DNA from: a virus
Strand: one strand, 5' to 3'
Virus record (IMG/VR): IMGVR_UViG_3300007734_000755
Location: 1-64,000 of that record
Length of the DNA stretch: 64,000 bases
This document shows positions 16,850-62,559 of this stretch, piece by piece. How positions within the stretch are numbered: the first letter of the stretch is position 1; every line of letters begins with the position of its first letter. The position numbers and the translations under genes were made by a program. Below the pieces are notes generated by a model that searched no databases, was not told the origin of the DNA, and saw only the letters and a program-made list of their open reading frames with translations.

Positions 16850-17089
16850 TTATCTCCCTATTGCTGCAATATATTTTCCATGTTTCCAAATTTGAGTTGA
16901 ATGTGCAAAAATTGCTGCTGGACCTTTATCTCTGTGGACCTTGTTCATAAAGAAGTAAAAACACTCCTCTCCTCTTACTACTGCCGGAAGATCGTTATCT
17001 CTATGCGTAAGAGAATTAAGAAGCCATCTAGTTTCACCATCATCTATCACGAGATTAATAATTTTCACAGTGGCTTTCCTTTTTCCCAA
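16850..17089 (-). CDS. HRDNDLPA-family small protein
   Basis: Of 79 aa. A beta strand near the start is followed by LTHRDNDLPAVV and a second half-repeat KVHRDKGPAAIF, then W.HG. The repeats resemble short beta-hairpin (MORN-like) units of the form W..G..HR..GPA. About 14 relatives lie in this window. Function unknown. Confidence 0.6.
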   Translation of the reverse strand: MGKRKATVKIINLVIDDGETRWLLNSLTHRDNDLPAVVRGEECFYFFMNKVHRDKGPAAIFAHSTQIWKHGKYIAAIGR

Positions 17090-17301
17090 TACTCACAGTA
17101 TCCATCTGGGGCTGTATAAGCTGGCATTTTTTCTCCCCTATGGCGGAATCCTTCATCCCACCAACCCATTGAACCATCCTCGAGAATTTCTGCTGGCAAG
17201 TCATAATCTCTATGACGGTTTCCGTTCTTATACCACCATACATCTCTCTGAGCTAGAGAAATTAGTTCAACCACCTTACGAGATTTCTCAGAATCGGTCA
17301 T
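17065..17301 (-). CDS. HRDNDLPA-family small protein
   Basis: VWWYKNGNRHRDYDLPAEI is followed by a degenerate second unit (GFRHRGEKMPAY) and YCEYWEKG, so three W..G units are visible in 78 aa. It overlaps the start of the 16850 gene by 25 nt and the ligase stop by four. Confidence 0.6.
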   Translation of the reverse strand: MTDSEKSRKVVELISLAQRDVWWYKNGNRHRDYDLPAEILEDGSMGWWDEGFRHRGEKMPAYTAPDGYCEYWEKGKPL

Positions 17302-18446
17302 CCCAACTCCATATCTCTAATTCCAAGACATACCGGGAATCTTGGAATTCCGTCATCGGTAAGCTCCTGAAATTTAATCGTTGCAATTTTCCCAACAAAT
17401 TCTTCTTGATTATCCCAAATATGTTGTCTTTCTTCCTCGGTCATAGCCGGTCTTGCAGAAAAGGTTACCGAGGTATTACAACCAAGAGCTAATCTAATTG
17501 CTCCTGCTGTCTCCGCAAGTTCTTCCCTATCAATACCTACAATTGTATATTCCTCTTGAAGGAATTTCTTATATTTGACTAGCTGGTGTGTCCTCTTTGT
17601 CTCATACCCGCAATTATCTCTGCGGATCATCATTCCCTCGTATCCGTTTCCAGCATATGAATCATGTTGCAACTCTGCATCAACATCCTTAAAAGATTGG
17701 GGGCCGATTGTTGGAGATTTGATTAGAGAAGACTCTTTAAATTTCTGTTCTAGGTCAGAACTCCCAACAATTGAGCACAAATGATTCCATCTTTCACCAA
17801 ACGTCTTATCGGGATCGACAATATCATAGATTACGTATTGAATCTTTTTTGCGTTCTTTGCATCAAAATTAACAGACTTCGACACAATTGAAGATATTCC
17901 CTGAAATGTCATATCGTGTGAATATAGTTCTCCATCAAGAAACCTAAATTTTCTTGCTGAGTTCTTAAGCAAGCCGAGAATGTCCTTGTTAATATGCGGC
18001 AGGCAAGCTATCTTTTTTCCTTGTCTGGAAAAGAGTTCGCCTGTTTCGCAATCTGCGATGCATCTAATACCATCGAACTTCGGTTGATAAAAAACATTAA
18101 CCCTATCGAGGGATTTTGTATCCTCAAAGGCATATGCAAGCATTGGTTTAATAGATGTTCTTTCATCATTTAGCCCACTAGAGAACGACCCGGTAGACGA
18201 GATTAGTTTATATCCAGAATCAATCTTCTTATTCGCCTTAGTTCTTGCCTCACCATCAGCTTGTTCCGAGGGGGTTGTTTCATTTGCTCTACCGATATTC
18301 TTCCCGACTAGTATTGTTTGACATAGAATTTGTGAGTTTCCTCCAACCTGGCCCCATTCATACTCAATATCATTATTGTGAATTCTCGCTTCCCAAAAGC
18401 AAGTTTTCTTACCGGATAATTTCTCTAATCTTATTGATGATTCCAT
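17298..18446 (-). CDS. ATP-dependent DNA ligase
   Basis: The 382-aa enzyme has an N-terminal WGR-like region (YEWGQVGGNSQ, residues 29-39). The adenylation motif KFDGIR at 123-128 has K123 as the likely AMP acceptor. FLDGELYS, EGMMIRRD and LVKYKKF (motifs III to V) follow, and a short OB fold ends the protein. It seals nicks in replicating phage DNA. It lies among accessory small genes and overlaps the next gene by ATGA. Confidence 0.88.
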   Translation of the reverse strand: MESSIRLEKLSGKKTCFWEARIHNNDIEYEWGQVGGNSQILCQTILVGKNIGRANETTPSEQADGEARTKANKKIDSGYKLISSTGSFSSGLNDERTSIKPMLAYAFEDTKSLDRVNVFYQPKFDGIRCIADCETGELFSRQGKKIACLPHINKDILGLLKNSARKFRFLDGELYSHDMTFQGISSIVSKSVNFDAKNAKKIQYVIYDIVDPDKTFGERWNHLCSIVGSSDLEQKFKESSLIKSPTIGPQSFKDVDAELQHDSYAGNGYEGMMIRRDNCGYETKRTHQLVKYKKFLQEEYTIVGIDREELAETAGAIRLALGCNTSVTFSARPAMTEEERQHIWDNQEEFVGKIATIKFQELTDDGIPRFPVCLGIRDMELG

Positions 18447-18455
18447 TTTTTTTTC

Positions 18456-18692
18456 CTATTTTTTATAATTTTCCGAAATGCGTTCTCCATTAGTATACCA
18501 AAATTCCGCCACCGTAGTTATGATTGCTGGGCCATCATCTCTGTGGAGCTTACCATATTGATACCAATATTCTGCACCACCGCCTATATGGGCCGGTAGA
18601 TCATTATCTCTGTGAAGATCTCCGTTCTTATCCCAACTAACTATTTTTTTTCCAGTATTACTAAATGAGATAATAAGGATTATTTGCTTCAT
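18456..18692 (-). CDS. HRDNDLPA-family small protein
   Basis: Two clear units, VSWDKNGDLHRDNDLPAHI and YWYQYGKLHRDDGPAII, and a third half unit FWYTNG make this one of the best-preserved members. It is coupled to the deaminase gene by an ATGA overlap. Confidence 0.65.
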   Translation of the reverse strand: MKQIILIISFSNTGKKIVSWDKNGDLHRDNDLPAHIGGGAEYWYQYGKLHRDDGPAIITTVAEFWYTNGERISENYKK

Positions 18693-19102
18693 AACTTCAT
18701 CATTTCAAATTGATTATGACCAGATGAATAAAAGACTCTCTTAACTCCCACAAATTTCATTGCTTCCTGGCACATGAGGCAGGGACGAGAATTACGAAAC
18801 TCACCAAAGATATTGGTTCTTACAACATAAACGTCGGAGTTAGCTGTATTTTCTCTGCCCATATTAAGAATAGCTCCCAACTCAGCGTGCAAGGTTGCCA
18901 ACCCAATGTTTCTTTCTCTGAATCTTTCACCGAACGAGCAGGACTTATTCTTGTTACAACTCGCATTTAATACGGAGCCATGTCTTACAAGAACAGCGCC
19001 GTGATTAAACTTCCCATAATCCGAAATTCTTGCCATTCTAGATGCGAACTCAAAAAACCGCATATTCCTTCCGACTGGTGCTATCTCAATGGCATTTCTC
19101 AT
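18689..19102 (-). CDS. dCMP/cytidine deaminase-family protein
   Basis: The 137-aa protein carries the zinc motifs HAELGAIL and RPCLMC (HxE and PCxxC) with the usual spacing. This fits deoxycytidylate deaminase, which makes dUMP for ThyX. Other deaminases of the fold (for example nucleic-acid editing ones) cannot be excluded. Confidence 0.8.
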   Translation of the reverse strand: MRNAIEIAPVGRNMRFFEFASRMARISDYGKFNHGAVLVRHGSVLNASCNKNKSCSFGERFRERNIGLATLHAELGAILNMGRENTANSDVYVVRTNIFGEFRNSRPCLMCQEAMKFVGVKRVFYSSGHNQFEMMKL

Positions 19103-19362
19103 TAGTCCTCTATAGATTCAAAACGATCACTTTCAATAAGCTCAATAAGTTCCCCAATCTCCTTTACAACCTTAATCATTTTAAAGTAATGAGGAGGCAT
19201 TGAGACTGTATTTTCTGAAGACATTTCTATCTCCATTCTCTTGACTGCTAATTCTGTTTCCTGAAACAGGACTTCTGAGCAGGTTTCAAAAGCCTCTCTC
19301 ATTCTCCTAATAGAATCCTTCTTGTTTAGATAATAAACATATCTGGTGCTTTTGTTACTCAT
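19102..19362 (-). CDS. 86-aa helical protein
   Basis: It is mostly charged helices (IRRMREAFETCSEVLFQETE). TAATG-style junctions on both sides suggest coupled translation. Function unknown. Confidence 0.5.
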   Translation of the reverse strand: MSNKSTRYVYYLNKKDSIRRMREAFETCSEVLFQETELAVKRMEIEMSSENTVSMPPHYFKMIKVVKEIGELIELIESDRFESIED

Positions 19363-19510
19363 CTTCTACTCCGCTCTCGCTATAACATGAAATATCTGGT
19401 TGATAAATATCCTCGATATCCGTCTTGAATTCGCACCAAAGACAAACTTTATCATGGTTAACATCTTTTTCGTCGTGTTCAATTTTACATTTCTTACAAA
19501 GAACTAACAT
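19355..19510 (-). CDS. 51-aa zinc-ribbon protein
   Basis: ATG at 19510 has an AGGATCC-rich upstream and the TAA is at 19355. CKKC at 5-8 and CLWC later form a zinc ribbon, with an acidic tail. It overlaps the next start by 8 nt. Confidence 0.5.
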   Translation of the reverse strand: MLVLCKKCKIEHDEKDVNHDKVCLWCEFKTDIEDIYQPDISCYSESGVEDE

Positions 19511-19556
19511 GGAGGATCCTTCTATACAGAGACTATATCAGGAGACATCATTTAGG

Positions 19557-19817
19557 TCAAGCAGCGAAATTAACAAATCTTCCATAAGTATAGAACATAC
19601 CTCTCCCATCTGGAGATATAATCGCAGGGCCGCCACTCCTATGTATATTTGAGTTATATCTCCAAATATACACTTCATCATAAAAAACTTGGGCTGGTAA
19701 ATCGTTATCCCTGTGTAATTGATAATTGTATCCTGCCTTTCTAAACCATGACCATTTACCATCTGCTCCATGATGGCTAACTGGATAAATGATTTTTTGT
19801 ATTAATTTTGTTTTCAT
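19557..19817 (-). CDS. HRDNDLPA-family small protein
   Basis: YQLHRDNDLPAQVF and a second unit NSNIHRSGGPAII, followed by MFYTYG, in 86 aa. The start MKTKLIQKII follows the family habit of a basic strand at the N-terminus. Confidence 0.6.
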   Translation of the reverse strand: MKTKLIQKIIYPVSHHGADGKWSWFRKAGYNYQLHRDNDLPAQVFYDEVYIWRYNSNIHRSGGPAIISPDGRGMFYTYGRFVNFAA

Positions 19818-19866
19818 CTGTCCTGTGTTATGAGCGGAAAAGTCACTTAATAAACCTCTCCTGCCA

Positions 19867-19939
19867 TCGAATATATTGGACTCGAACCAACATACAGGAA
19901 ATAACGTTCCTGCTCTTTATCCCTTTGAGCTAATACCTT
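19867..19939 (-). tRNA. tRNA-like gene, six-base anticodon loop
   Basis: The D-arm GCTC/GAGC and a T-arm with TTCGAGT are present. The acceptor pairs for five positions only. The anticodon arm is CAGGAA-CGTTAT-TTCCTG, six pairs with a six-base loop, so the anticodon is not assignable with confidence. Confidence 0.5.
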
Positions 19940-19942
19940 TGA

Positions 19943-20247
19943 CTATTTCATAACACGGATTTTTTTCATTAGAATCAGAATAATAATTTAATATTAATCC
20001 ACGCTTTGCCGTAATATATAATTATTAATTTTGATCGGTCAAAACTCACCTAATAAAAAATGTGATATCTAGGATTTCGAAAGAATAAGGAAATTTCTTT
20101 ACTTACATTATGTTTCGAGACTATTATTCTTCTGGCTTTGATGGTAGGGATTTATACTACGCTCCGTGACTTCACAATATAACCATTTTAGTTATAATTC
20201 ATCCAACGAGCTTCATTTTGATACACCATTGCCTATTTCTAGATATT
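19943..20247. other. AT-rich spacer without a gene
   Basis: About 300 bp between two tRNA genes. I see no frame with a ribosome site, no consensus promoter and no strong hairpin. Confidence 0.5.
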
Positions 20248-20249
20248 GG

Positions 20250-20321
20250 AGGTCCGTCACGGAATTGAACCGTGTTCTCCGGGTTACAAATCCGGTGCAT
20301 CGCCAGCAATGCTTACAGACC
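20250..20321 (-). tRNA. tRNA-Thr (TGT)
   Basis: The acceptor GGTCTGT pairs with ACGGACC, followed by T and an encoded CCA. The anticodon arm is CCGGA-TTTGTAA-CCCGG with an A-C mismatch at 31-39. It is the second TGT tRNA in the window. Confidence 0.85.
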
Positions 20322-20492
20322 AAATTCTTCTCTGTACATATTATACGACTGCGACATTATGCTGTCAAGGATCGTTCTGTCTCTAACAACATAGAAGTCT
20401 CCATGCGAGGTTCCGATATAAAAACCGTTTTCAAACCAATTCTTCGTATTGGAGCGCCCTATAGAAAGATTAATTATTCTCTTATTCTTCAT
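20313..20492 (-). CDS. 59-aa protein related to the HRDNDLPA genes
   Basis: The start MKNKRIINLSI (20492) matches the N-terminal strand of the family, but the HRDNDLPA core is absent. Its 3' end overlaps the tRNA-Thr 5' end by 9 nt. Probably a diverged relative. Confidence 0.45.
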   Translation of the reverse strand: MKNKRIINLSIGRSNTKNWFENGFYIGTSHGDFYVVRDRTILDSIMSQSYNMYREEFGL

Positions 20493-20610
20493 TATAAATC
20501 TCATCGAGGTATTCTTTCCAGGATATTCCTGGAAAGAATTTATCAACCCATATGCAATAATATCTTCTATTATCATAAAATGAGATTTCTATTGTTTTCT
20601 TATTTTTCAT
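20482..20610 (-). CDS. 42-aa protein related to the HRDNDLPA genes
   Basis: The start MKNKKTIEISFYD (20610) has the same N-terminal pattern. The remainder ends WKEYLDEIYNEE. It overlaps the 20313 gene by 11 nt. Core motif absent. Confidence 0.4.
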   Translation of the reverse strand: MKNKKTIEISFYDNRRYYCIWVDKFFPGISWKEYLDEIYNEE

Positions 20611-20729
20611 TAGAGTGCCTATTAAAATATGTAGCCCACGAGAACCCCACGAAAACATTGTTCTCAAAGATTAAATAACGTTGGTAGTTCTTAAAAAAAC
20701 AAAGTTCTATTTTCTTAAGCTCTATTTTC

Positions 20730-20855
20730 TTAACATTCATTTAATTTTCCATAGAAGTAGTGTTTATATCCCCAATAAACGTACCGCTTATCCGATATTT
20801 CTACACAATAAGTCTCGGCCCTTAAAATAAATATATTAACATATAGTTTTTTCAT
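20730..20855 (-). CDS. 41-aa protein, probable family relative
   Basis: ATG at 20855 shares a base with the upstream stop (TAATG). MKKLYVNIFIL and YVYWGYKHYFYG follow the strand-then-aromatic pattern of the family, without the core motif. Confidence 0.4.
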   Translation of the reverse strand: MKKLYVNIFILRAETYCVEISDKRYVYWGYKHYFYGKLNEC

Positions 20856-21061
20856 TACCATCCCCAATCATCGCCAAAACTATAATGAATATAGGGTTCA
20901 TATTCAGGGAACCTTCTAATCTCGGAAGCAACAACTATCTTATTATTAAAGTCATAAAGAGATGGGCGATAGTCTGAATATGCCACTGTGTCTCCATCAC
21001 GCCGGATCGACCATATTCTACCAGAGTAATCAATAATTAACAATATTTGTTTAGTTTTCAT
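20855..21061 (-). CDS. 68-aa protein, probable family relative
   Basis: The start at 21061 (MKTKQILLIID) is chosen because it overlaps an upstream TGA as ATGA. GRIWSIRRDGD resembles the W..R.DGD part of the repeat. Confidence 0.45.
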   Translation of the reverse strand: MKTKQILLIIDYSGRIWSIRRDGDTVAYSDYRPSLYDFNNKIVVASEIRRFPEYEPYIHYSFGDDWGW

Positions 21062-21233
21062 TTTAGCCATTCCGAATAATCAATGTCACTTCCGTCAAGA
21101 TGCGTGTGTCGGTACGGGGTTCTAGGCAGTTGATAGGGGCAACCCTCCCTATACTTGGAGAGAGAATAGTCGTACCAATATCTTGCATAAATTATATCTC
21201 TAGGATAAACAACGTTATTTTTTTACTTATCAT
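21058..21233 (-). pseudogene. small frameshifted gene of the same family
   Basis: From the ATG at 21233 the frame reads MISKKITLF and stops early. Another frame reads YPRDIIYARYWYDYS on to SEWLK and ends in TGA at 21058, coupled to the next ATG. Adding one base to the A7 run just after the start joins them. It is either a broken gene or an error in a homopolymer. Confidence 0.4.
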
Positions 21234-21381
21234 TGGTTTCTCCACGAATCAACCTTCCGTCGCTCTCTGTTATTTTATAAAGCAGCAGGCCCATATTAAC
21301 CCTCGGTACAGCTATACAATGATACCAGAACCTTCTGGGTGAAAAATTCCTTGGTAAGATAAGAACAACTTTTTTATTCAT
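21223..21381 (-). CDS. 52-aa protein, probable family relative
   Basis: ATG at 21381, TAA at 21223, overlapping the next start. MNKKVVLILPRNFSPRRFWY begins with the family-type strand. No core motif. Confidence 0.4.
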   Translation of the reverse strand: MNKKVVLILPRNFSPRRFWYHCIAVPRVNMGLLLYKITESDGRLIRGETNDK

Positions 21382-21423
21382 GTTTTTTGATAAATTTTTG
21401 AATCTATCGTCTCTGTTGTTGGG

Positions 21424-21636
21424 CTATAAATCCCTAACTGGCCTAAGATTAAAACCATCAAGCCATTCGTGCCTAACATATACGCCGTTTATGTAAAAAT
21501 AATTAGCAATAGTTTCCCTCATAGCTGGTAAATCGTTATCCCTGTGAAGGTATCCGTGTTTAGACCATCTATAAACACAATCTCCGCAGTTCTTGCTCAT
21601 TATAGTTAATCTTATTGTTTTACAATTACGAAGCAT
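21424..21636 (-). CDS. HRDNDLPA-family small protein
   Basis: YRWSKHGYLHRDNDLPAMR is followed by YFYINGVYVRHEW in 70 aa. It overlaps the upstream gene by 11 nt. Confidence 0.6.
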   Translation of the reverse strand: MLRNCKTIRLTIMSKNCGDCVYRWSKHGYLHRDNDLPAMRETIANYFYINGVYVRHEWLDGFNLRPVRDL

Positions 21637-22258
21637 TCTCGTCCACCGCTGTCCTAATTGAGATAACTTCCATCATTCTGCGCTCCGAACCTAGAATAAA
21701 ATTCCTTGCTCTATTCTCTAGAATAGATAGAACTTCTGATGGGATATCATTGTCAAATTTAATAGTAATGCTTTGTTCAATTCCATGACGGACAGGCCCG
21801 TTGGACAAATCTTCTCTTAACCGATCCTCAACCAGAGAAATTTCATGTTCCAAAGAGGAAATAGATCTTGTAGAAAAAAACCCTTCTCTGATTTTACAAT
21901 TGATAGAATCAATTCTCTCTTCTGCTCTAGCTATGGCTGTTTTTTCATAAGTCTTTAATATTTCATTAGGATCATCATTTTCTTTCCAAACATTTCCAAG
22001 ACAATCATGGAAAAATCCAGGAGTTTCAGAAACAGAAAACGGACTATCATAGTCATTATAACTATCATCATTAGATAAAGCCAAATTCCATGCAAGATGC
22101 GTTCTTATCCATTCAAGAATTTCTGGCGGCATTTCTATTCTAGCTAGATACCCAACGTGCATTGAGTCCCCATATTCATCCCAATGGCCAGTCATATATG
22201 CCGATAATTTTCTGAGAGAACCCATATCACTGGTATTTGTATCTACGATAAAAATCAT
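21626..22258 (-). CDS. 210-aa protein of unknown function
   Basis: It has an alpha/beta start and a long helical region (residues about 105-170). The central sequence SETPGFFHDCLGN is distinctive, but I do not recognise a family. It follows tRNA-His and its promoter. Confidence 0.6.
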   Translation of the reverse strand: MIFIVDTNTSDMGSLRKLSAYMTGHWDEYGDSMHVGYLARIEMPPEILEWIRTHLAWNLALSNDDSYNDYDSPFSVSETPGFFHDCLGNVWKENDDPNEILKTYEKTAIARAEERIDSINCKIREGFFSTRSISSLEHEISLVEDRLREDLSNGPVRHGIEQSITIKFDNDIPSEVLSILENRARNFILGSERRMMEVISIRTAVDENAS

Positions 22259-22289
22259 AATTTTCTCTAATAGATTGTTATTGTTATAG

Positions 22290-22362
22290 TGTGTTGGAAG
22301 GGATTCGAACCCTCAATTACGAGATCCACAATCTCGCGTTCTACCAATTGAACTACCAACAC
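22290..22362 (-). tRNA. tRNA-His (GTG)
   Basis: The acceptor GTGTTGG pairs with CCAACAC, and the base before it (22363) would supply G-1. The anticodon arm is CGAGA-TTGTGGA-TCTCG. Confidence 0.92.
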
Positions 22363-22381
22363 CATCGTGTTATCTAAACGC

Positions 22382-22441: not shown

Positions 22442-22446
22442 AATTG

Positions 22447-26923: not shown

Positions 26924-27211
26924 TTATTTTTCCTCGTCCCTTCCACTGTCATATCCATCACTATATCCACTGTCATAGGCCCGCTCTCTTGCGGTATCTT
27001 CACACCTTTCGATTTCGTAGTCTATTGCGAGTTTTAGTATCATTGGAACAAATTTATTTTGCTCCTTAAAGATATCTTCTCTTAGAGAGGATCTCCACTT
27101 ATTATTCAACTCTGTTGCTTCTTCAATGGCATCGTTTTCATCGAAAAAAACTTTATCATCCATTATTTCGCCACGATCCAATATCGTCCACAACTCATTA
27201 AGGTTTAGCAT
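26924..27211 (-). CDS. 95-aa paralogue with GYxxGY repeats
   Basis: The start MLNLNELWTILDRG (27211) is parallel to the neighbour, and the end is YDSGYSDGYDSGRDEEK. It is a tandem duplicate of the 26544 gene with a shorter repeat. Confidence 0.55.
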   Translation of the reverse strand: MLNLNELWTILDRGEIMDDKVFFDENDAIEEATELNNKWRSSLREDIFKEQNKFVPMILKLAIDYEIERCEDTARERAYDSGYSDGYDSGRDEEK

Positions 27212-27518
27212 CGTATTCCTCAACCCATATTTCGTTATGACCATCCCAAAGATAAGTCTGGTTCTTACATAAGATTTCGTCCCAAGAAGTGCGCTTATAA
27301 ATTTGATTAAATTTATAATACTCTGATTCCTTTCCTAGGAAAGAAATGTAGGCTGGCCCGATATCTCGGTGAAGATCACCGTTCCGATACCACGATAGGT
27401 CCCCGTCAAGATAAATAAAGGCCGGAAGATCGTTGTCTCTATGGAGACAGCCGTTTTTTTTCCAGAAACGAAGAGAATCAAAATTCTGAGTGAACTCTAT
27501 TTTCTTTAAGGTTCCCAT
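27198..27518 (-). CDS. HRDNDLPA-family protein with C-terminal extension
   Basis: Two full units, FWKKNGCLHRDNDLPAFIY and SWYRNGDLHRDIGPAYI, in a 106-aa protein. The last 35 residues (YLWDGHNEIWVEEYDAKP) are specific to this member. Confidence 0.65.
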   Translation of the reverse strand: MGTLKKIEFTQNFDSLRFWKKNGCLHRDNDLPAFIYLDGDLSWYRNGDLHRDIGPAYISFLGKESEYYKFNQIYKRTSWDEILCKNQTYLWDGHNEIWVEEYDAKP

Positions 27519-28936: not shown

Positions 28937-29116
28937 CTACTGAGCTAAGTTAATATTATACATTAGTGACCCATTCCACCACCATTCCTTGGCAGCTATA
29001 GAATCATAGGCTGGCAAATGATTATCTCTATGGAGGCGACCATTCAATCTCCATATTTTATATGAGTGTATCTGATTTATAACCAACTCTATTTTCTTTG
29101 GGCTACCGGGGTTCAT
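28937..29116 (-). CDS. HRDNDLPA-family small protein (59 aa)
   Basis: ATG at 29116, TAG at 28937. IWRLNGRLHRDNHLPAYDS is followed by EWWWNGSLMYN. The motif has His for Asp at the fifth position. Confidence 0.6.
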   Translation of the reverse strand: MNPGSPKKIELVINQIHSYKIWRLNGRLHRDNHLPAYDSIAAKEWWWNGSLMYNINLAQ

Positions 29117-29118
29117 TA

Positions 29119-30414
29119 TTAGTGAGACTCCTCTAAATCTACGTAATCCGCATTATCCTTGGCCATTCCTTCCATAACCTTAAAAGCAAAGCTCTTTGAT
29201 TTTAGAACATATGGACCAGGATATCCCTCTCCTCTAATACAAACACCCTCTCTGATGTGGCGTTGGTCAATGGTAGATGACCCGTCAGTTACAGATTCAA
29301 CAAGCTCTCTCAACTTATCTTCGTCACCATCATAAATGAATGAATCGTAAACCTCAGGAACATGCTTAATTCCAAGTTCCGAACAACGCTTCTTAACGCC
29401 TTCCCAAGAAAGGTCAACGCAGAATCCGTCCTCATTTAGGTGAGCAATTCTGTAGACAAAAACATCTGACTGTCCGTCGCTGCAACCATAGGAATAGTTC
29501 ATCTTATTCCCGTAGGCTCGCTGAAACTGCTTGTCCTTCATCGACTTTGGATCGCCGGGTGGCATAACAGGAGTTCCATCCTTAACCCAGCCAACTACCT
29601 CAAAGAACAGCATTTCATACTTATGAAGTTTCCCCTCTAAGTCTTTGACGGCCTTGAACCTAAACGTTTCATCTCCGTAATAACTTTGACGGCTATCCTC
29701 AATAGAGCGAAGAGTAATATTTCTGGTTCCTACAATATGTCCCCACTTCTTTTCTGGTCTTAGACCAATCTTCTGGCTAAACCATCCCCAACTCCACTTG
29801 GGGTAAGTGTATTTTTCCTCAACAAAGGCAAATCTTTGAGAAGTACCATGTAATTTCTCAGTAATAGAGACCAACGAACCCTTCTTCAGCTTCCAGACAC
29901 TATTTCTAAAGATGTCTGTATCAAAGTGCTTAGGAAATGCGAGAATTTCTCTCTTCATAAGTTCATTTTGCTTCTTCTTATTTTCTTTTCCTGCGGCTCT
30001 TTGGGTCGCCTGCGTTACATACTTATTACAAATTGCAATGCCGTTTAGAACCTCAAACTTATCGTGCTCCTTCAGCTTAGAAAGATCCGCTCCGGTAAAT
30101 TCAAGATTTGATAGTGGACACCAAAACCCATCAGATTTAACTCCTCGGAATTTCTGGGCACGGACTCTACGATTCTCCTCAAAGAAGCCGCCCTTAGTTT
30201 CCCCGGTTAGGGGATCCTTATATCGAACAAGATCGTTTGCTGTTGCAAACTCCACGCTTAGCTGACCATCAGTTTCAAAGAAAACTCCGAGGTCTCCCTC
30301 AAGGATTTTTCTCGAAACAACAACGGTGTTACCAACAACATTTCCCGAGGAAATATGATCCGACTTGGGAATAGCTTCAACGCTCTTGATTCTTGCTACG
30401 ATTGCACTATACAT
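29119..30414 (-). CDS. RNA ligase (Rnl5/DraRnl-like)
   Basis: The 431-aa protein has an N-terminal domain (residues 1-140) like the OB module of Deinococcus-type ligases. The nucleotidyltransferase motif EKLHGTS lies at 186-192, with K187 as the AMP acceptor. Later motifs include EGVCIRGE and LKSKSFAFK. It would reseal nicked RNA, fitting a phage with many tRNAs that may face anticodon nucleases. That role is inference. Confidence 0.8.
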   Translation of the reverse strand: MYSAIVARIKSVEAIPKSDHISSGNVVGNTVVVSRKILEGDLGVFFETDGQLSVEFATANDLVRYKDPLTGETKGGFFEENRRVRAQKFRGVKSDGFWCPLSNLEFTGADLSKLKEHDKFEVLNGIAICNKYVTQATQRAAGKENKKKQNELMKREILAFPKHFDTDIFRNSVWKLKKGSLVSITEKLHGTSQRFAFVEEKYTYPKWSWGWFSQKIGLRPEKKWGHIVGTRNITLRSIEDSRQSYYGDETFRFKAVKDLEGKLHKYEMLFFEVVGWVKDGTPVMPPGDPKSMKDKQFQRAYGNKMNYSYGCSDGQSDVFVYRIAHLNEDGFCVDLSWEGVKKRCSELGIKHVPEVYDSFIYDGDEDKLRELVESVTDGSSTIDQRHIREGVCIRGEGYPGPYVLKSKSFAFKVMEGMAKDNADYVDLEESH

Positions 30415-30711: not shown

Positions 30712-30915
30712 CTATTTTCCTTTAAGTTTGTTTTTTTCTACACAAGAACCGTTATTATACCACAATCCAATTCTTTCAAAATTCCCAAACGGGAACTGTA
30801 TAACTTGAGCAGGGAGATCGTTATCTCGATGTAAATCGTTTGTTTGGTTGTACCACGAAACAACCAGTTGATTGAAACTAACTACTAGTTTAATCTTTTT
30901 CGTCTTCATTTTCAT
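30712..30915 (-). CDS. HRDNDLPA-family small protein
   Basis: VSWYNQTNDLHRDNDLPAQV followed by LWYNNGS in 67 aa. It overlaps the upstream stop by one base. Confidence 0.6.
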   Translation of the reverse strand: MKMKTKKIKLVVSFNQLVVSWYNQTNDLHRDNDLPAQVIQFPFGNFERIGLWYNNGSCVEKNKLKGK

Positions 30916-31330: not shown

Positions 31331-31359
31331 ATTATAGCTGTCGGAAGGAATCTTGTCAA
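31331..31359 (-). promoter_or_regulatory. perfect-consensus sigma70 promoter for tRNA-Ile
   Basis: TTGACA (31359-31354) and TATAAT (31336-31331), 17-bp spacer. Confidence 0.8.
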
Positions 31360-31366: not shown

Positions 31367-31480
31367 TTATTCAAAGACAACCCTTATAAGATTATTTTCT
31401 CTATCAATTTTATTGTTCTTAAACCAAACCTTCTTGTTTCTATCCATAGAACGATATATTATAAGCTTTATTTTCTTCAT
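31367..31480 (-). CDS. 37-aa degenerate HRDNDLPA-family protein
   Basis: ATG at 31480 overlaps the upstream TGA. MKKIKLIIYRS and VWFKNNKIDRENNLIRVVF keep the family layout, with DRENNLI in place of HRDNDLPA and no second unit. Confidence 0.45.
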   Translation of the reverse strand: MKKIKLIIYRSMDRNKKVWFKNNKIDRENNLIRVVFE

Positions 31481-32228: not shown

Positions 32229-32519
32229 TTAGTTTTGAATAATCAAAGGCGCGTCCCAGTCTGAATCGAATTCATAATCTTCTGAGGAAGATTTCACCTT
32301 TGGAGCAGGTATCCTGTGCCCTTCTCTATACCAGGCTTCATAACCTGAATTATTGACTCTCGCTGGGCCGTTGATTCTATGAATTTTTCCTTCCTTATAC
32401 CACAAACCTTCACCATCTGAATGCATGACAGCGGGAAGATCATTATCTCTGTGTAGAGTATCATCCTTATACCAAATAGTCACGCTTTTAAGGAGCTTTT
32501 TTCCTATTTTCTTAATCAT
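32229..32519 (-). CDS. HRDNDLPA-family protein
   Basis: Two full units, IWYKDDTLHRDNDLPAVMH and LWYKEGKIHRINGPARV, then AWYREGHRIPAP and an acidic tail, 96 aa. It shows best that the units are W-Y-x2-G-x-HR-x3-PA repeats. Confidence 0.65.
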   Translation of the reverse strand: MIKKIGKKLLKSVTIWYKDDTLHRDNDLPAVMHSDGEGLWYKEGKIHRINGPARVNNSGYEAWYREGHRIPAPKVKSSSEDYEFDSDWDAPLIIQN

Positions 32520-32528: not shown

Positions 32529-32711
32529 TCAGTAAAAGTTTTTTTTACGATATTGCGCCCCATCCTTATAATATAATTGGACACCAACAAAATCTATATA
32601 GGCAGGAAGGTCGTTATCTCTGTGTAGGCAATTGTTTTTAAACCAAAAGTTGCTAATAGTACCGTCATAGTAAACGTTTATTTCTTTCGATATTATTTTT
32701 TTATTCTTCAT
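32529..32711 (-). CDS. HRDNDLPA-family small protein
   Basis: The start MKNKKIISKEI (32711) shares a base with the upstream TAA. FWFKNNCLHRDNDLPAYID is followed by LYYKDGAQYR. Confidence 0.6.
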   Translation of the reverse strand: MKNKKIISKEINVYYDGTISNFWFKNNCLHRDNDLPAYIDFVGVQLYYKDGAQYRKKNFY

Positions 32712-32854
32712 TACCAAAGTCTTACCGCCCTTAATCCGTTTGCCTTATAAAAACAATAATCACAATTTTCCTGATCTAGAACCCACCAAATTACTTGGCA
32801 TGTTGTTTCATCTTGATTTCTAAAGATTTGAACTTCTATTTTCTTAATCTTCAT
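32711..32854 (-). CDS. 47-aa protein, probable family relative
   Basis: ATG at 32854. MKIKKIEVQIF has the family start and VIWWVLDQENCDYCFYKANG the aromatic pattern, without the core motif. Confidence 0.45.
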   Translation of the reverse strand: MKIKKIEVQIFRNQDETTCQVIWWVLDQENCDYCFYKANGLRAVRLW

Positions 32855-38373: not shown

Positions 38374-38573
38374 AGAGATAATCCCAGTTCAAATGCTGCG
38401 AATAGACAGCCCACAAGCATAGTGAGAGCAGAAAGGATTAGTTCGTTCCGCTGCGAGGAAAGCCATTCAATTTCTGAATCAATTTGAACTAATCTGATAT
38501 CGCGAGATAAATCTTCCAGCAACTGATTAATTTCTTCTTCTAACTCTAGCGAATCCATTTTTTTGTTCTCCAA
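38370..38573 (-). CDS. 67-aa tail-anchored membrane protein
   Basis: An acidic helix is followed by a single hydrophobic segment at about 47-65 (LILSALTMLVGCLFAAF). ATGA-coupled to the previous gene. Confidence 0.55.
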   Translation of the reverse strand: MENKKMDSLELEEEINQLLEDLSRDIRLVQIDSEIEWLSSQRNELILSALTMLVGCLFAAFELGLSL

Positions 38574-45754: not shown

Positions 45755-47323
45755 CTATACCTCCACTATTGCATTACTCGTCGTAATGAGGGTTGATACT
45801 ACCGATATTGAATTTCTGACGGCAGCCGTGGTTACTCTAACAGGATCCACGATTCCTGCTTTATATAAGTCTATAATAACTTTCTTCTTAACGTCTAGCC
45901 CAAACCCATATTTTGACTTAAGCACTTTTGACGCAAGTACCTGAGATTCTAGGTCAAGATTGTCGCAAATCTTCTCGAATGGGGCAACTAGGGATCTCTT
46001 AACTATGTCGTATCCTATGGCCTGTTCCTCGGCTAGGGAAGGGGTTTTAAGGGCCTTAGCTGCCTTCAGGAGCGTTGTTCCGCCACCAGGGTGAATACCG
46101 CCTAGCTGTGCTGACTTAACCGCTTCTAGGGCATCCTCAATACGGTGTTTCTTTTCTATAATTTCTACCTCACTCGACCCACCAACTCGTATGGTAACAA
46201 CCCCGCTGGAGAGTCTCGTTATTCGCTCCTGGATTCTCTTACATTCCTCGAGATCATCTGTCTCCTTAATAAGATCTCTAAGCGATTCAGTACGCTTTTC
46301 AACCTCTACCATTGATCCCTTTCCGCCTATAATTGCAGACTGTTGCTTGCCAATTTCTACAGACTTACATCTGCCAAAATCAGAGAGAGTAAACTGGGAA
46401 AAATCCTCCCCCGACTCGCGAGTAAAGAACTTTCCGCCGGTTGCTATTGCAAGATCAGATAAGACGTTTCTTCTTTCCTCTCCATAATATGGGGCCTTGA
46501 CAGCAACAACCTTCATGGAATTTTTTATCGTATTCATGATAAGAGAAGCAAGCAACTGTCCCTCAATATCATCCGTCACGATTATCAACGGCTTCTTTTC
46601 TCTTGCTGCTAATTCCAATACTGGGAGTATTGGTTCGACATATTCAAGTTTCCAATCAGTAATGAAAAGGAGACAATCATTGTGTTTCGCAACCTTTCTC
46701 ATCTCATCAGTTATAAACCTTGACGATAAAAATCCAGATTCAAAGATGAATCCTTCTGTTAGGTCTAATTCTGTTTCATATGACTTAGAATCGTCGATTG
46801 TTATTGCTCCATTCTTACCGGCAAGATCAACTGCCTTAGTTATTAACTTCCCAATAACAGCGTCATTATTAGATGATATGGTGGCAATATTTTCTATATC
46901 AGCAAGGCTGGTTATATCCTTGGAGTTTTCCACAATAAACTTAATAGCATCTTCGCAGGCTAAATCCATACCGCGCTTCATTTCTGTTGGAGAAACTCCG
47001 GATGATAAATATTTCTGAGCCTCACATAACATGCGGTACGCCAGTAGGGTACTAGTAGTGGTCCCATCTCCGGCTTCGTTTGCGGTCTGTAGAGCAGCTT
47101 GCTTTAGAATTTGTGCTCCAACATTCTCAAATGGGTCATCAAAATCAACAAACCGAGCTACAGTTACTCCGTCTTTTGTTATTATTGGTCTTCTTTCTTT
47201 CTGTTGTAGTATTACGTTTCTCCCTCCAGGCCCAAGAGTAGAAGAAACGATATTAGATAGCTTTTCTACTCCGGATAGTATCTTTTCTTGAAGGAGTTTG
47301 TTCCCCTCGTACACCTTTGACAT
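45755..47323 (-). CDS. GroEL-like group I chaperonin
   Basis: The 522-aa protein has the chaperonin signatures LGPGGRNV, TKDGVTVARF, AGDGTTTSTLL and QLGGIHPGGGTTLL. The order matches equatorial, intermediate and apical domains. It lacks the GGM-rich C-terminal tail and is slightly shorter than bacterial GroEL. No GroES is visible in the window. Phage chaperonins of this type are known in other large phages (for example EL and OBP) and probably fold virion proteins. Confidence 0.92.
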   Translation of the reverse strand: MSKVYEGNKLLQEKILSGVEKLSNIVSSTLGPGGRNVILQQKERRPIITKDGVTVARFVDFDDPFENVGAQILKQAALQTANEAGDGTTTSTLLAYRMLCEAQKYLSSGVSPTEMKRGMDLACEDAIKFIVENSKDITSLADIENIATISSNNDAVIGKLITKAVDLAGKNGAITIDDSKSYETELDLTEGFIFESGFLSSRFITDEMRKVAKHNDCLLFITDWKLEYVEPILPVLELAAREKKPLIIVTDDIEGQLLASLIMNTIKNSMKVVAVKAPYYGEERRNVLSDLAIATGGKFFTRESGEDFSQFTLSDFGRCKSVEIGKQQSAIIGGKGSMVEVEKRTESLRDLIKETDDLEECKRIQERITRLSSGVVTIRVGGSSEVEIIEKKHRIEDALEAVKSAQLGGIHPGGGTTLLKAAKALKTPSLAEEQAIGYDIVKRSLVAPFEKICDNLDLESQVLASKVLKSKYGFGLDVKKKVIIDLYKAGIVDPVRVTTAAVRNSISVVSTLITTSNAIVEV

Positions 47324-57912: not shown

Positions 57913-58231
57913 TTTGTCCTGTGTTGCTTGGGTTGTCTAATTGTTCGCTAAGAGCGAAAATTTGATTCGATAAAATCTTCTCTTTATTTCTTAACTCACA
58001 CTCCATCATATAAAATCTTTGGGCTTGTTGCACATGTCTCTTTTTTTCTTCTTGAAGTTCTTCGTAAAGCTTTCCATAGAGAGTATTTTCTGGTTCTACC
58101 AGACAAAGGACCGAATTTATGTTGTTCATCAACTCATAAGCTTCTTCAAATGTCATAGTAACGGGACGCCCGTTTATTGGAACTGTGAGACGTTTGTATT
58201 CTTCATGCTGAGAAAGCCCGTTATACATCAA
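57899..58231 (-). CDS. 110-aa coiled-coil protein
   Basis: The N-terminal part resembles a small regulatory segment (TVPINGRPVTMTFEEAYELM), then a coiled coil to the end. It overlaps both the polymerase start and the ATPase end. It may be a partner of one of them. Confidence 0.55.
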   Translation of the reverse strand: MMYNGLSQHEEYKRLTVPINGRPVTMTFEEAYELMNNINSVLCLVEPENTLYGKLYEELQEEKKRHVQQAQRFYMMECELRNKEKILSNQIFALSEQLDNPSNTGQNAKY

Positions 58232-59402
58232 CCGCTCCTCTTACTTCTGAATTATAGGCAAAAATTTCTGCTATCGTTGCCGACTCTCTTTCTCCTAATT
58301 CCTTTGGAAGCTCTTTTCCGCCCGATAGGCGATTCCAGGCCAATCTTAACTCATCTCTATTAAGAGAGCCAACGTGGCATATAGAGGATAATCTACCTGG
58401 TCTTTTCATAGCATCATCTATCTGAACTATCGGCTGATTTGTCGTGATTAACAATCTTATGTTGCAAACGTCTCCGAGGATGCCATCTCCCATGTTTAGA
58501 GCTGCTGAAATGGCATCGATGGAATCCTTCATTCTCTCCTTTACCAAGATATCTGCGTCCTCAAGAATAAGAACCATTGGACGATTTTCCTTCTTGTGTG
58601 ATAGCAACGCAGGTAACATATCCGGCTCTCCAAGTTTCGCAACGAGAGAGGGAGGAACGATAACAAACGAACAATGCTTCCCAAGCTCGGCAATTATAGA
58701 ACGAATCAGATAGGTCTTCCCTGTTCCCGGAGGGCCACTGAGAATACTAATCTTCCCCGTTGGGAATTCTTTCTTTAATTCATCAGATAAAAAGATTTTT
58801 TGTTTTTGAAGCTCAGCTGAATAATACTCTGGCGTAAATGCACACCCTACCTTGCCAGTTTTTTGGATCGAAATCCCCTCTATAGAGGACAACATCATAC
58901 CGACTGAACTCTTATTCTTGTCCTCTGCCGGCGGCTTCTTAAACGGGAGAAAAACTCTCTTGAGAGAGTCGAACATATCTTTGTTTGTTGTACGAAGTGA
59001 TATGTATTGATACTTCCCGGAATAATTCGATCCCTTTTGATAGACAACGTTTGTATCCCCACTCTCGTTCACGAAGATGGCACACTCTACAGGATCCTCA
59101 TCAGAATCCACAATTTCATCGTATTCAGATACTAGGTCTTGCTCTTCCGAGGAATACAACTCAGCCATATTGAATTTGTATTCTGCCAGTGCTTCCTCGA
59201 CCTTAGAGTGGGAAAGAGTGGTCGATACCATAAACGTTCTTAGAGTCTTTTTTTCATTAACTGCCTTTTGCAGGAAGGCATCATCAAATATCCCAGCACC
59301 GCGCTCGGTTCTCCCGGCAAATCCATATTGAAACCACGGAAGGTTTGTAACCTTTTTTGAAGAAAGTTTATTAAACTGATTCTCTGTCGTATTCATATTC
59401 AC
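58221..59402 (-). CDS. AAA+ ATPase
   Basis: The 393-aa protein has GPPGTGKTYLIRS (Walker A), VLILEDADILV (Walker B) and LLITTNQPI (sensor 1) in its second half. An N-terminal domain of about 200 residues is unassigned. It resembles single-ring AAA proteins seen in large phages. Position next to the polymerase is consistent with replication or remodelling; neither is proven. Confidence 0.78.
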   Translation of the reverse strand: MNMNTTENQFNKLSSKKVTNLPWFQYGFAGRTERGAGIFDDAFLQKAVNEKKTLRTFMVSTTLSHSKVEEALAEYKFNMAELYSSEEQDLVSEYDEIVDSDEDPVECAIFVNESGDTNVVYQKGSNYSGKYQYISLRTTNKDMFDSLKRVFLPFKKPPAEDKNKSSVGMMLSSIEGISIQKTGKVGCAFTPEYYSAELQKQKIFLSDELKKEFPTGKISILSGPPGTGKTYLIRSIIAELGKHCSFVIVPPSLVAKLGEPDMLPALLSHKKENRPMVLILEDADILVKERMKDSIDAISAALNMGDGILGDVCNIRLLITTNQPIVQIDDAMKRPGRLSSICHVGSLNRDELRLAWNRLSGGKELPKELGERESATIAEIFAYNSEVRGAVDV

Positions 59403-59613
59403 ATTCCTTAAGCTCTTCGTAGTAATTGTTTAATTCGTTTTCAAATGAGAGTGAACATTCCTCGATTATGGCAGACACTAGATCTCTATACTCAAATGGA
59501 AGAGAATAAAAATCCTTCTTGAGTGCATCTGGCACCTGGTTTTTTAACATTATTGAACTCCAAATCCATTCTGGTCTAATCTTCGGGTTGGAGATCCCCG
59601 GTAATTCTGTCAT
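59371..59613 (-). CDS. 80-aa protein of unknown function
   Basis: The start MTELPGISNPKIRPEW (59613) is followed by helical segments and an acidic C-terminus. It overlaps the ATPase by 32 nt and the next gene by 38. Confidence 0.5.
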   Translation of the reverse strand: MTELPGISNPKIRPEWIWSSIMLKNQVPDALKKDFYSLPFEYRDLVSAIIEECSLSFENELNNYYEELKECEYEYDRESV

Positions 59614-60541
59614 AATCATCAAATACTCCACAGTCTATTAATCTTTCTTCAAGATCTTTTATTTTGTTATAGCGAAAGTATTTAATCTTCCTTTGCATCT
59701 TATAGTGATAATTGGAAGAAATATACTTGACATACCCATCCCAAGTCGAAATATCATGTATTCTATACCCAGGAAGGATGGTCGCTCCCTCTAGTGTAGC
59801 ACAGCTGAACACCTCGTCAAGCCGGATATCTTTGTTAGAAACTCTCTCGCTCGGATTCCTTCTCTTTAAAAGCTTCAAATCTATTTGTTCACTGGAAATT
59901 CCAGTGTATTTCCATTCCCCAATAACCAGAGAATCAAGATTCTTCTTAAACTGAGGCAACTCTTCTCTAAAAAACGTAAACCCAATAGGAACCCCGTCTC
60001 TGATAGACTTGCCTTCTAGGGTAAAATAGAAATTATTTTTTGAACTTTTAATTCTTTTTCTAAATCTCTGCAATTTCCAGGGTGAATAAACTGTGTGTGG
60101 GAATGAAACATAAAACTTATCTGGCTTTATGAAACCAGATAGTTTCCCAGAGATTTTTAGAGCATAGTCCGCTCCAATTAGAATAGATGATGCGTAGCAA
60201 TCCTTCTTACCCACATCTCTTACTGGTACTGAGGCATACCAGATTGGTATCCTCATCTTGAAATTGTTCTTAAATTCTACTGGAAGCTGAGCAAGTATGG
60301 GATCTTCTACCCATTCGCCCACGACTGTTTTCATGAGAGGAACATACCTCTTGTCCACTATTACCCAAATAGAGTTACATCCTGCTATGGCACACTCCAA
60401 GACACTTCTGTGGAGGGCCGTATAATTCTTATTCAGAGGAGAGAGAGAACTCGGCCACGGGAGTCCATCATTTGATGGACCATTCTGTATTGGAATGATC
60501 CCAACCAAGTGGTTTGCGTAAATTCCCGGCAATCTTTCCAT
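59576..60541 (-). CDS. nucleotidyltransferase-like (GT-A type) protein
   Basis: The 321-aa N-terminus VGIIPIQNGPSNDGLPWPSS followed by LNKNYTALHRSVLECAIAGC and IWVIVDKRY resembles the first half of a GT-A NTP-transferase fold. The rest has no recognised motif. It overlaps the neighbour by 109 nt. Likely sugar or nucleotide transfer, not assigned. Confidence 0.5.
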   Translation of the reverse strand: MERLPGIYANHLVGIIPIQNGPSNDGLPWPSSLSPLNKNYTALHRSVLECAIAGCNSIWVIVDKRYVPLMKTVVGEWVEDPILAQLPVEFKNNFKMRIPIWYASVPVRDVGKKDCYASSILIGADYALKISGKLSGFIKPDKFYVSFPHTVYSPWKLQRFRKRIKSSKNNFYFTLEGKSIRDGVPIGFTFFREELPQFKKNLDSLVIGEWKYTGISSEQIDLKLLKRRNPSERVSNKDIRLDEVFSCATLEGATILPGYRIHDISTWDGYVKYISSNYHYKMQRKIKYFRYNKIKDLEERLIDCGVFDDYDRITGDLQPED

Positions 60542-61314
60542 ACTTCGTCCTCTGTTCTTTTATCAATTATTATTGATGACGAGGTTTCATACTCGTTCAG
60601 ATCTTTATCTTGTATGTGTCTCTTAACCCACTCTAGTTTTATTCTTAGTTTATTTTCTAGCAGAATCTTATTAACCTGCTTTCCTATATAAAACGAAGAA
60701 TATTCTGGATTTCTCAATTCTTCCATTGTCAATTCTGAGTGGGACATCAGTCTTTTCTTATCAGTTGATAGATAAATGTTCCTAGGAAATAACCCTTCAG
60801 CTGGAATTATATGATAAAATTTATTATCAATAAACTTAGTATTGAATTCATCCAAAACATATAGGTGTTCTTTTCTTTCTCCTGTTGGAGTTAGAAATTT
60901 TATCTCTCTAGTATCAAAGATTCTTAGTTTATTAAACTTAAATTTATAAATTCTTTGATTCTTAGATACAACCTTCAATATTTGACTTTCTTCATCTAAG
61001 TAAAACTCTGTTACATTCTCAGCCAAAGGAATCTTTCCACTTAGAGATTGAATATAATATAGATGATTATATACACTCTTTTTTGAATAGGGCTTTACAA
61101 ATTTTCCCTTTGGGAAATTAAGTTGTTTGTTTTCCTTATCCATACCAATTCTACTCAGGTTCATAGAATAGTCTATGAACTCAAAAAACCGAGGTTTTGA
61201 GTTAATCTTGTAGAGAATTGGATTTCCAGTAAAATATGAATGTATTAATGAAGAGATATTAAGGCCTATGTTAATCTCATCGTATTCATATATATGAGTT
61301 TTTAAATCATTCAT
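60433..61314 (-). CDS. 293-aa protein of unknown function
   Basis: It is an alpha/beta protein with an Asp- and Tyr-rich N-terminus (THIYEYDEINIGLNISSLIH). It is probably a partner of the 59576 protein, given the unusually long overlap of 109 nt. No family recognised. Confidence 0.55.
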   Translation of the reverse strand: MNDLKTHIYEYDEINIGLNISSLIHSYFTGNPILYKINSKPRFFEFIDYSMNLSRIGMDKENKQLNFPKGKFVKPYSKKSVYNHLYYIQSLSGKIPLAENVTEFYLDEESQILKVVSKNQRIYKFKFNKLRIFDTREIKFLTPTGERKEHLYVLDEFNTKFIDNKFYHIIPAEGLFPRNIYLSTDKKRLMSHSELTMEELRNPEYSSFYIGKQVNKILLENKLRIKLEWVKRHIQDKDLNEYETSSSIIIDKRTEDEVWKDCREFTQTTWLGSFQYRMVHQMMDSRGRVLSLL

Positions 61315-61501
61315 TTATCCTTGTTGTCTCGTATGCTATAAATCTATAGCCTACTATATCAGATATGCCATATTCTGGGGTCACCATAAATACGGGAATC
61401 AGTGATACCTCGGACCATTCTACATCCTCTGGCATATCATTTAAGACTTCCATTAATTTTATGGGTTTTGAAAAAACCCTACTTTCATATTTTCTCTTCA
61501 T
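61307..61501 (-). CDS. 64-aa protein of unknown function
   Basis: It begins MKRKYESRVFSKPIKLM and is ATGA-coupled to the HRDNDLPA gene upstream. No motif recognised. Confidence 0.5.
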   Translation of the reverse strand: MKRKYESRVFSKPIKLMEVLNDMPEDVEWSEVSLIPVFMVTPEYGISDIVGYRFIAYETTRINE

Positions 61502-61767
61502 TTTAATCCTGCCTCCGGATAATAAAACACCAACAATTTCTCGGCAAGTGTGTTTTGACTCATATCTCGATCGTTACCCATGTTCATCATCCGACCCATA
61601 TGGAACCAATAAAAGGTTCCATATTCTTCTACAGCCGGTAGGTCGTTGTCTCGGTGCTCACGCCACAGGTCGAGATCGTCCTTTCTTTTCCAGCAAAATG
61701 TTCGATATATTACTTCAGGGCTGTTATATCTTGATGTAATCGTGAGTCTAATTTTTTTCATATACAT
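61498..61767 (-). CDS. HRDNDLPA-family protein (tandem block)
   Basis: MYMKKIRLTITSRYNS and LWREHRDNDLPAVEEYGTFY in 89 aa. The second unit has decayed. First of four consecutive members, each overlapping the next by 4-10 nt. Confidence 0.6.
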   Translation of the reverse strand: MYMKKIRLTITSRYNSPEVIYRTFCWKRKDDLDLWREHRDNDLPAVEEYGTFYWFHMGRMMNMGNDRDMSQNTLAEKLLVFYYPEAGLK

Positions 61768-62024
61768 CCTTTAATCAGGGGTAGGTCTTTAAGAGTCTTG
61801 TCATAGAAATGAGGGTAGTCTTCTCCTGTTCTCCAGGTGGCAAATAATCTATCCTTGTAATAATAGTCACAATGAGTAGACAGACAAACAGCTGGAAGGT
61901 TGTTTTCTCTATAATAATATGTGCTGTACTCATAAATATCAAAAAATACTCGGCACCACTCTTTATATGAGTCGTGCTTGTCCCTACCTTGACTTGTACG
62001 TAACAATATTTTCTTACGTCTCAT
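61758..62024 (-). CDS. HRDNDLPA-family protein (tandem block)
   Basis: MRRKKILLRTS and TYYYRENNLPAVCL, then YYYKDRLFATW, in 88 aa. The motif is YRENNLPA. Confidence 0.6.
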   Translation of the reverse strand: MRRKKILLRTSQGRDKHDSYKEWCRVFFDIYEYSTYYYRENNLPAVCLSTHCDYYYKDRLFATWRTGEDYPHFYDKTLKDLPLIKGCI

Positions 62025-62305
62025 ATTTTAATATCTTCAAATTGAATTTCTGGAGTGAAGGTACATTCTTCTTCTGTTTCGTGTCTGCTCTTTATTATCA
62101 AAGCATTTTCGTACCAATAAAGATATCCAAATTCATATGCAGCTGGTAAATCATTTTCTCTATATGAATAGAAAACGTTATCAGATTCACCTCGGAACCA
62201 CTCCACGGAAAAATACCCTCTATCCCACGAGTGGTTAGTTTGGTGGTATGATAAATTTCTTTTAATTGAACTGGAGTTCAATACCAACCTAATTTTTTTC
62301 ATCAT
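62021..62305 (-). CDS. HRDNDLPA-family protein (tandem block)
   Basis: MKKIRLVLNSSS and FYSYRENDLPAAYEFGYLYW in 94 aa. The motif is YRENDLPA. The tail is acidic. Confidence 0.6.
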   Translation of the reverse strand: MMKKIRLVLNSSSIKRNLSYHQTNHSWDRGYFSVEWFRGESDNVFYSYRENDLPAAYEFGYLYWYENALIIKSRHETEEECTFTPEIQFEDIKI

Positions 62306-62559
62306 AGATATTTCTCTCGAAAGTATGGACGAACCAATTGTAGTGGTCCTGGGCCTCTGACGTATCGTGGGCCAGGACTGTCACGATTCCAAGTGGCATA
62401 AAAACGCCCTTTTTCGTCATAATATACTCCCACTATAGAATCGTACTGGGCGGGTAGAGAGTGGTCTCTGTGTATTCCGTCGTAAACTTCACCTCCCTCC
62501 CAAAAATCCTTAGACCATGTGATGTAATCTCTTCTTATTGTTAGCCTCACAGTCTTCAT
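62302..62559 (-). CDS. HRDNDLPA-family protein (tandem block)
   Basis: MKTVRLTIRRDYITW and GIHRDHSLPAQYDS, then VYYDEKGRFYATW, in 85 aa. It ends next to the ThyX stop, so the block is probably co-expressed with ThyX. Confidence 0.6.
   Translation of the reverse strand: MKTVRLTIRRDYITWSKDFWEGGEVYDGIHRDHSLPAQYDSIVGVYYDEKGRFYATWNRDSPGPRYVRGPGPLQLVRPYFREKYL

Follow-up and report, generated by a model that had tools for sequence, protein, structure and literature searches.

A lineage-specific set of dispersed mini-proteins, built on a predicted MORN-like hairpin repeat, in a T4-type phage

The DNA considered here is the first 64 kb (hereafter, the window) of a 114,837-base IMG/VR contig, virus record IMGVR_UViG_3300007734_000755, and its subject is a family of small minus-strand genes whose products carry the octapeptide HRDNDLPA or a close variant. 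A frame scan of the window placed the pattern [HY]R[DE]xxLPA in 14 minus-strand frames of 59-106 amino acids, nine of which bear the exact HRDNDLPA; the first-pass annotation had counted at least 14 such proteins, and its count held. The window holds the motif 15 times, where 200 base shuffles gave 0.005 on average, and a reversed control pattern found no match. The fifteenth match, on the plus strand at 38498, lies in a frame of just 10 codons and is attributed to chance. A hidden Markov model (HMM) built from ten members recovered, in a search of the record, the other four and added a truncated 37-residue copy and a PcfJ-like protein. The members, the truncated copy and the more degenerate relatives are as follows.

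16850..17068, minus strand: member, 72 amino acids, HRDNDLPA and HRDKGPA; its GTG start overlaps the stop of the 17065 gene (GTGA)
17065..17301, minus strand: member, 78 amino acids, HRDYDLPA and HRGEKMPA; its ATG overlaps the DNA ligase stop (ATGA)
18456..18692, minus strand: member, 78 amino acids, HRDNDLPA and HRDDGPA; its ATG overlaps the stop of the deaminase gene
19557..19817, minus strand: member, 86 amino acids, HRDNDLPA and HRSGGPA
21424..21636, minus strand: member, 70 amino acids, HRDNDLPA
27198..27518, minus strand: member, 106 amino acids, HRDNDLPA and HRDIGPA
28937..29116, minus strand: member, 59 amino acids, HRDNHLPA
30712..30915, minus strand: member, 67 amino acids, HRDNDLPA
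32229..32519, minus strand: member, 96 amino acids, HRDNDLPA and HRINGPA
32529..32717, minus strand: member, 62 amino acids, HRDNDLPA
61498..61761, minus strand: member, 87 amino acids, HRDNDLPA; in a four-gene tandem cluster
61758..62024, minus strand: member, 88 amino acids, YRENNLPA; ATGA overlap with its neighbours
62021..62305, minus strand: member, 94 amino acids, YRENDLPA; ATGA overlap
62302..62559, minus strand: member, 85 amino acids, HRDHSLPA
31367..31480, minus strand: truncated member, 37 amino acids, KKIKLII..W..NNKIDRENNL, in which DRENNL replaces the motif; family HMM E = 5e-5
20313..20492, minus strand: degenerate relative with the start and W-x2-NG, without HRD or LPA; 59 amino acids from an internal ATG
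20855..21070, minus strand: degenerate relative with the start and W only, 71 amino acids
21223..21381, minus strand: degenerate relative with the start and W only, 52 amino acids
32711..32854, minus strand: degenerate relative with the start and WW, 47 amino acids
26435..26665, minus strand: possible degenerate relative, C-terminal KKVSLDI...CWFINGSFVRENGL; a weak HMM match (E 0.16)

The architecture is much as had been described from the letters alone: W-x3-G precedes the motif, and a second unit, W-x3-G-x2-HR-x3-GPA, follows in six members (16850, 17065, where it reads HRGEKMPA, 18456, 19557, 27198 and 32229). The annotation had also mentioned extra small genes sharing only the start, and these are present: the start pattern KKIxLxI has 15 matches on the minus strand and none on the plus strand, and adds the four start-only relatives listed above, all with a following W. 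Across members W, HRD and LPA are constant while the remaining positions vary, and net charge spans -4 to +6 (+7 counting the truncated copy) with the motif kept throughout. Inspection by eye revealed no evident signal peptide at the start of any member, and the members show no apparent catalytic motif. The family also reaches past 16850-62559: the PcfJ-like protein, about 410 amino acids long and encoded at record positions 91107-92327 (L010:8210-9448), has a GKGTRWCTA motif and carries two of the units at its C terminus (HMM E = 4e-9).

Two lines of evidence bear on translation. The nine identical HRDNDLPA octapeptides differ from one another at an average of 4.9 of their 24 nucleotides, all such differences being synonymous by definition. 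In addition, at members 16850, 17065, 18456, 61758 and 62021, among others, start and stop codons overlap with those of neighbouring genes as ATGA or GTGA, the partners including the DNA ligase and dCMP deaminase-like genes. That all members might be untranslated, which the first-pass annotation had considered, is rejected on these two observations, and because of them we take the 14 members and the truncated copy to be real, translated paralogues of one family.

HRDNDLPA is itself part of a longer repeat unit of 23-24 residues, DGtkeW-x3-G-x2-HRdndLPAve, which in tandem arrays recurs with a period of 24 or 23. When 2.9 million virus contigs were scanned, the coded octapeptide turned up in 22 stretches which, bar a few chance frames, encode tandem copies of the unit in proteins of up to 904 amino acids, one multi-domain frame with units being longer still. 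The repeat can be very abundant: there are 54 profile matches in a 57-kb contig (G009), and 41 and 43 in a pair of 174 kb. It is also present on plasmids of Curtobacterium, Miltoncostaea, Frigidibacter and Azospira, and in bacterial genomes, foremost a Neisseriaceae metagenome-assembled genome (MAG) in which there are 121 matches, many of them on a single contig. On the Azospira plasmid the NAD-dependent DNA ligase LigA (L041:3953-6430) has an N-terminal fusion of the repeat. Alignment of the window members, together with eight locus proteins on the same side, to the tandem arrays gave an hhalign probability of 99.9% (E 3.5e-31, 74 columns). By this comparison the window members belong to an unnamed family of HR-x-LPA/GPA repeats of 23-24 amino acids.

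In the Neisseriaceae bacterium MAG, AWTP1-37, many of the matches lie in tandem genes, and some of the repeat proteins begin with apparent twin-arginine translocation (Tat) signal peptides (MNRRNIIKGILGF). A frame of 2083 amino acids (L023:6177-12425) combines a NUDIX domain, a PBECR5 nuclease-like domain, a PI3/4-kinase-like stretch and MORN-like units.

Scans of the members against Pfam, PHROGs, NCBIfam and PADLOC returned chance matches only; those to OCRE, AP2 and Cas8b, each confined to one weak stretch, were rejected. A literature search with the motif letters found nothing. Single members and neighbouring ligases had no close relative in IMG/VR, and a sequence search of solved structures yielded no relative. 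A capsid of nucleocytoplasmic large DNA viruses was sought in 13 virus records and none was found, in a search that lacked a positive control.

The annotation had suggested structure prediction as a further check. The AlphaFold2 model of a 223-residue tandem array has a predicted local distance difference test score (pLDDT) of 91.5 and a predicted template modelling score (pTM) of 0.80, and each unit adopts an identical strand pattern. In a Foldseek search the best match of this model among solved structures is the MORN domain of junctophilin-2 (E 5e-5, probability 1.00); its top viral matches include proteins of Powai lake megavirus, mimivirus (R871) and Harvfovirus, the last a 'MORN repeat-containing protein'. 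The model of window member 27198 has a pLDDT of 74 overall and of 90-93 over residues 21-60. Choline-binding repeats, the weak top match of the short model (E 0.95), were dropped once the longer model pointed to MORN. The model thus supports the view that the unit is a MORN-like beta-hairpin. We write 'MORN-like' rather than MORN because the sequence tests for MORN and MORN_2 fail. Comparison to MORN1 proteins by hhalign gave a probability below 1%, from few sequences and without a positive control, so that the two may still share a distant ancestor. For MORN_2 (PF07661) the best scores were 10.2 and 8.3 bits, under the gathering cut-off of 29.6; 12 records rich in the HR-LPA unit contained no match to that profile in a scan that had no positive control, and control genomes were silent too.

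The record has genes for a tail sheath, major head protein, portal, DnaB helicase, ribonucleotide reductase and an SbcC-like protein, and by these markers we assign it to the T4-type myoviruses. Relatives with 50-70% identity in head protein or GroEL are colinear with it over 45-115 kb; the phage GroEL gene itself lies at window 45755-47323, with about 50% identity in relatives. The region from about 5 to 45 kb is almost without counterpart in them (only 35051 and 38634 have one), and it is inside this accessory, hypervariable region, at 16.8-32.8 kb, that ten of the 14 members are found. The four-gene cluster at 61498-62559 is inserted between core genes that relatives keep, and the PcfJ-like gene, which stands in the structural module between the tail sheath and head-tail adaptor genes, is an insertion by comparison with the relative G038, where its neighbours adjoin. 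The family was found in none of 20 contigs of relatives (most of them fragments, four longer than 100 kb), while the same query gave 14 matches in its own record. A lineage-specific paralogue set in the accessory region of the phage is supported by these comparisons.

Also among the accessory genes are 15 tRNA genes (window 7567-33217, minus strand; one with an unusual anticodon call) and, amid them, an RNA ligase gene at 29119-30414 with one member just downstream. Two neighbours of the members deserve separate mention.

17298..18446, minus strand: ATP-dependent DNA ligase, with members on both sides, one of them overlapping it
18689..19102, minus strand: dCMP deaminase-like protein, overlapping the start of member 18456

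Counting both strands, the record has 16 promoters of sigma-70 type, taken as matches to at least 11 of 12 consensus positions, where 3.5 would be expected; the minus strand has 12 of them, all but one in the accessory region. Near-perfect TTGACA-17-TATAAT promoters are found in window 4491-44295 and at record position 71351; those at 31359, 23884 and 20368 are directly upstream of tRNA genes. Host-type promoters in the accessory region suggest early transcription by the host polymerase.

From the number of paralogues the first-pass annotation had proposed diversifying selection, for example on a set of decoys, inhibitors or adaptors against host defences. Translated, lineage-specific accessory paralogues are supported by our data; the selection that it invoked is not. 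Where the synonymous rate (dS) between window paralogues could be computed, the nonsynonymous rate (dN) was 0.40 with a dS of 3.0, and 0.50 with a dS of 1.4; other pairs were saturated. In G005, a virus contig of analogous layout, dN/dS between closest paralogues is mostly 0.3-0.65. (A comparison of G005 with contig G013 was set aside, the two being the same virus over their shared part, and the G005 paralogues were used instead.) In the sister viruses G001 and G002 orthologous repeat genes give mostly 0.35-0.55, somewhat above most other genes compared, and their array of 904 and 853 amino acids has gained or lost units. These values do not show the dN/dS above 1 expected of diversifying selection, which for whole genes is not supported; single sites may yet be under positive selection. 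The HRDNDLPA motif is held by strong purifying selection, and the pattern as a whole reads as relaxed purifying selection with birth and death. A paralogue tree of 71 columns is too short to resolve and has long end branches; the window members cluster in it (1 of 500 shuffles was as low), a clustering that neither shows nor excludes a single origin.

What might such proteins do? Our preferred reading, to which we give about an even chance, is that they are lineage-specific mini-proteins on one MORN-like hairpin repeat, acting as early, cytosolic, non-catalytic binders that are perhaps directed at the host. A member would comprise an N-terminal strand (KKIxLxI) followed by the core hairpin W-x3-G-x2-HRDNDLPA, often with a second hairpin, W-x3-G-x2-HR-x3-GPA, and a partial third. 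It would be produced in the cytosol, and probably at an early stage of infection; the paralogues would differ in the surface that they turn to a partner protein, which might be a host protein that the phage blocks, tethers or redirects. We infer small cytosolic binding proteins because the hairpin core is constant, surface and charge vary, no catalytic motif is apparent, and the expression context fits; early timing and host targets belong to the same chain of reasoning. Several observations weigh against this reading. As to the fold, template modelling (TM) scores of the array model to solved MORN structures are modest, at 0.33-0.39, which may perhaps reflect different bending of long arrays; the model of member 27198 is less sure and has no PDB match under E 0.001; and canonical MORN profiles (PF02493) give no sequence match, nor does any Pfam profile match the members. 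As to expression, the promoters are consensus counts and not mapped start sites, and the cluster at 61.5-62.6 kb has no promoter match nearby.

A counter-defence kit, in which each paralogue, as inhibitor or decoy, would neutralise its own host defence or takeover target and an arms race would have kept and diversified the set, we consider possible if rather unlikely. In its favour are the many lineage-specific paralogues with variable surfaces, in a hypervariable region that also holds the RNA ligase and 15 tRNA genes, but the whole genes show no excess of amino-acid change, and the repeat's relatives in plasmids, bacterial chromosomes and enzyme fusions are not specific to counter-defence. 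PADLOC, whose library covers defence and not counter-defence, gave one chance-level match (Cas8b, E 0.03). Bolder, and in our judgement doubtful, is an extension of the binder reading to a modular library, in which some 20 early proteins with one hairpin core and different surfaces would each capture a different host protein, the scaffold having been expanded independently in large phages, giant viruses and some bacteria for inter-genomic conflict.

A shade more doubtful still is the proposal that the set reflects mostly non-adaptive birth and death, a readily duplicated small gene having spread in a tolerant region, where only copies still able to fold would have kept its scaffold. Many copies are truncated or start-only, the four-gene tandem cluster and neighbouring pairs suggest local duplication, the tree is poorly resolved with long end branches, and massive tandem expansions occur elsewhere, as in the Neisseriaceae MAG. 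Against this, nine copies keep the identical octapeptide although about 5 of its 24 nucleotides differ between them, and motifs persist at saturated dS, which argues that at least these copies are kept by selection on the protein.

It is improbable that the members are accessory subunits of phage nucleic-acid enzymes, clamping or targeting DNA ligase, RNA ligase or tRNA processing factors. The DNA ligase gene is flanked by two members and overlapped by one, a member follows the RNA ligase gene, and LigA of the Azospira plasmid carries a repeat fusion; most members, however, adjoin unrelated small genes, and where genes are so tightly packed adjacency is weak evidence. Least probable of all is a role as virion or assembly-scaffold parts, with the hairpins as structural connectors, for the two-unit PcfJ-like protein between tail sheath and head-tail adaptor genes, the point in its favour, is encoded by an insertion relative to G038, and the small members are encoded away from the structural module, for the most part where the host-type promoters are found.

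The family defines a repeat that phages, giant viruses and some bacteria commonly carry but that Pfam, PHROGs and NCBIfam do not contain, and at least two different virus contigs have expanded this repeat into scattered mini-genes. The family also supplies a concrete test set, minimal proteins of one to three hairpins whose partners could be fished out, and the isolated phages Celeribacter P12053L (gp09) and Agrobacterium Atu_ph07 carry tractable relatives. If the members do turn out to bind host targets, they would show how a phage can in nature retarget a single small scaffold many times over.

In the databases searched, the repeat is known only from viral proteins that are uncharacterised or named 'MORN repeat'; what is new is that a T4-type phage carries it in dispersed mini-genes whose first unit is fixed as HRDNDLPA. 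MORN proteins are made of 23-residue beta-hairpin repeats, and TbMORN1, the best-studied MORN-only protein, dimerises and was not found to bind lipid or membrane as once assumed (PMC7725318). Canonical MORN repeats (junctophilin-2, TbMORN1; PF02493) share with the present unit a beta-hairpin of about 23 residues, W and G at the hairpin and an elongated array, but the published consensus is YxGEW-x2-G-x3-GxG, where here we find W-x3-G-x2-HR-x(3-4)-PA with constant HR and PA. MORN_2, with a unit of 22 residues, aligns weakly around a W-Y-x-N-G stretch, yet its profile scores the window repeat far under the cut-off. The repeat proteins of mimivirus (R871), Powai lake megavirus, Harvfovirus, uncultured Caudovirales, Atu_ph07 and P12053L have the same HRxxGPA/HRxxLPA unit and modelled fold, and Atu_ph07 also has several dispersed copies; many of these proteins, however, are longer tandem arrays, and in none of the named isolates examined did we see a set of some 15 mini-genes in which the first unit is always HRDNDLPA. 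Bacillus phage G offers an analogy in another domain, a lineage-specific expansion of about 35 zinc ribbons proposed to be transcription factors or DNA-binding structural proteins (PMC7824862), so that here too a single phage carries a small domain in many paralogues. In layout the 146-kb contig G005 (IMGVR_UViG_3300042330_000875) comes closest: its 39 matches are scattered over genes of about 105 amino acids, nearly all with one HRLTGPA unit. These genes share ISSPDENTPA, HRLTGPA and DHPNPD, and it is in such flanks (SSPDENTPA before the unit, DHPNPD after it) that this different virus departs from the family described here.

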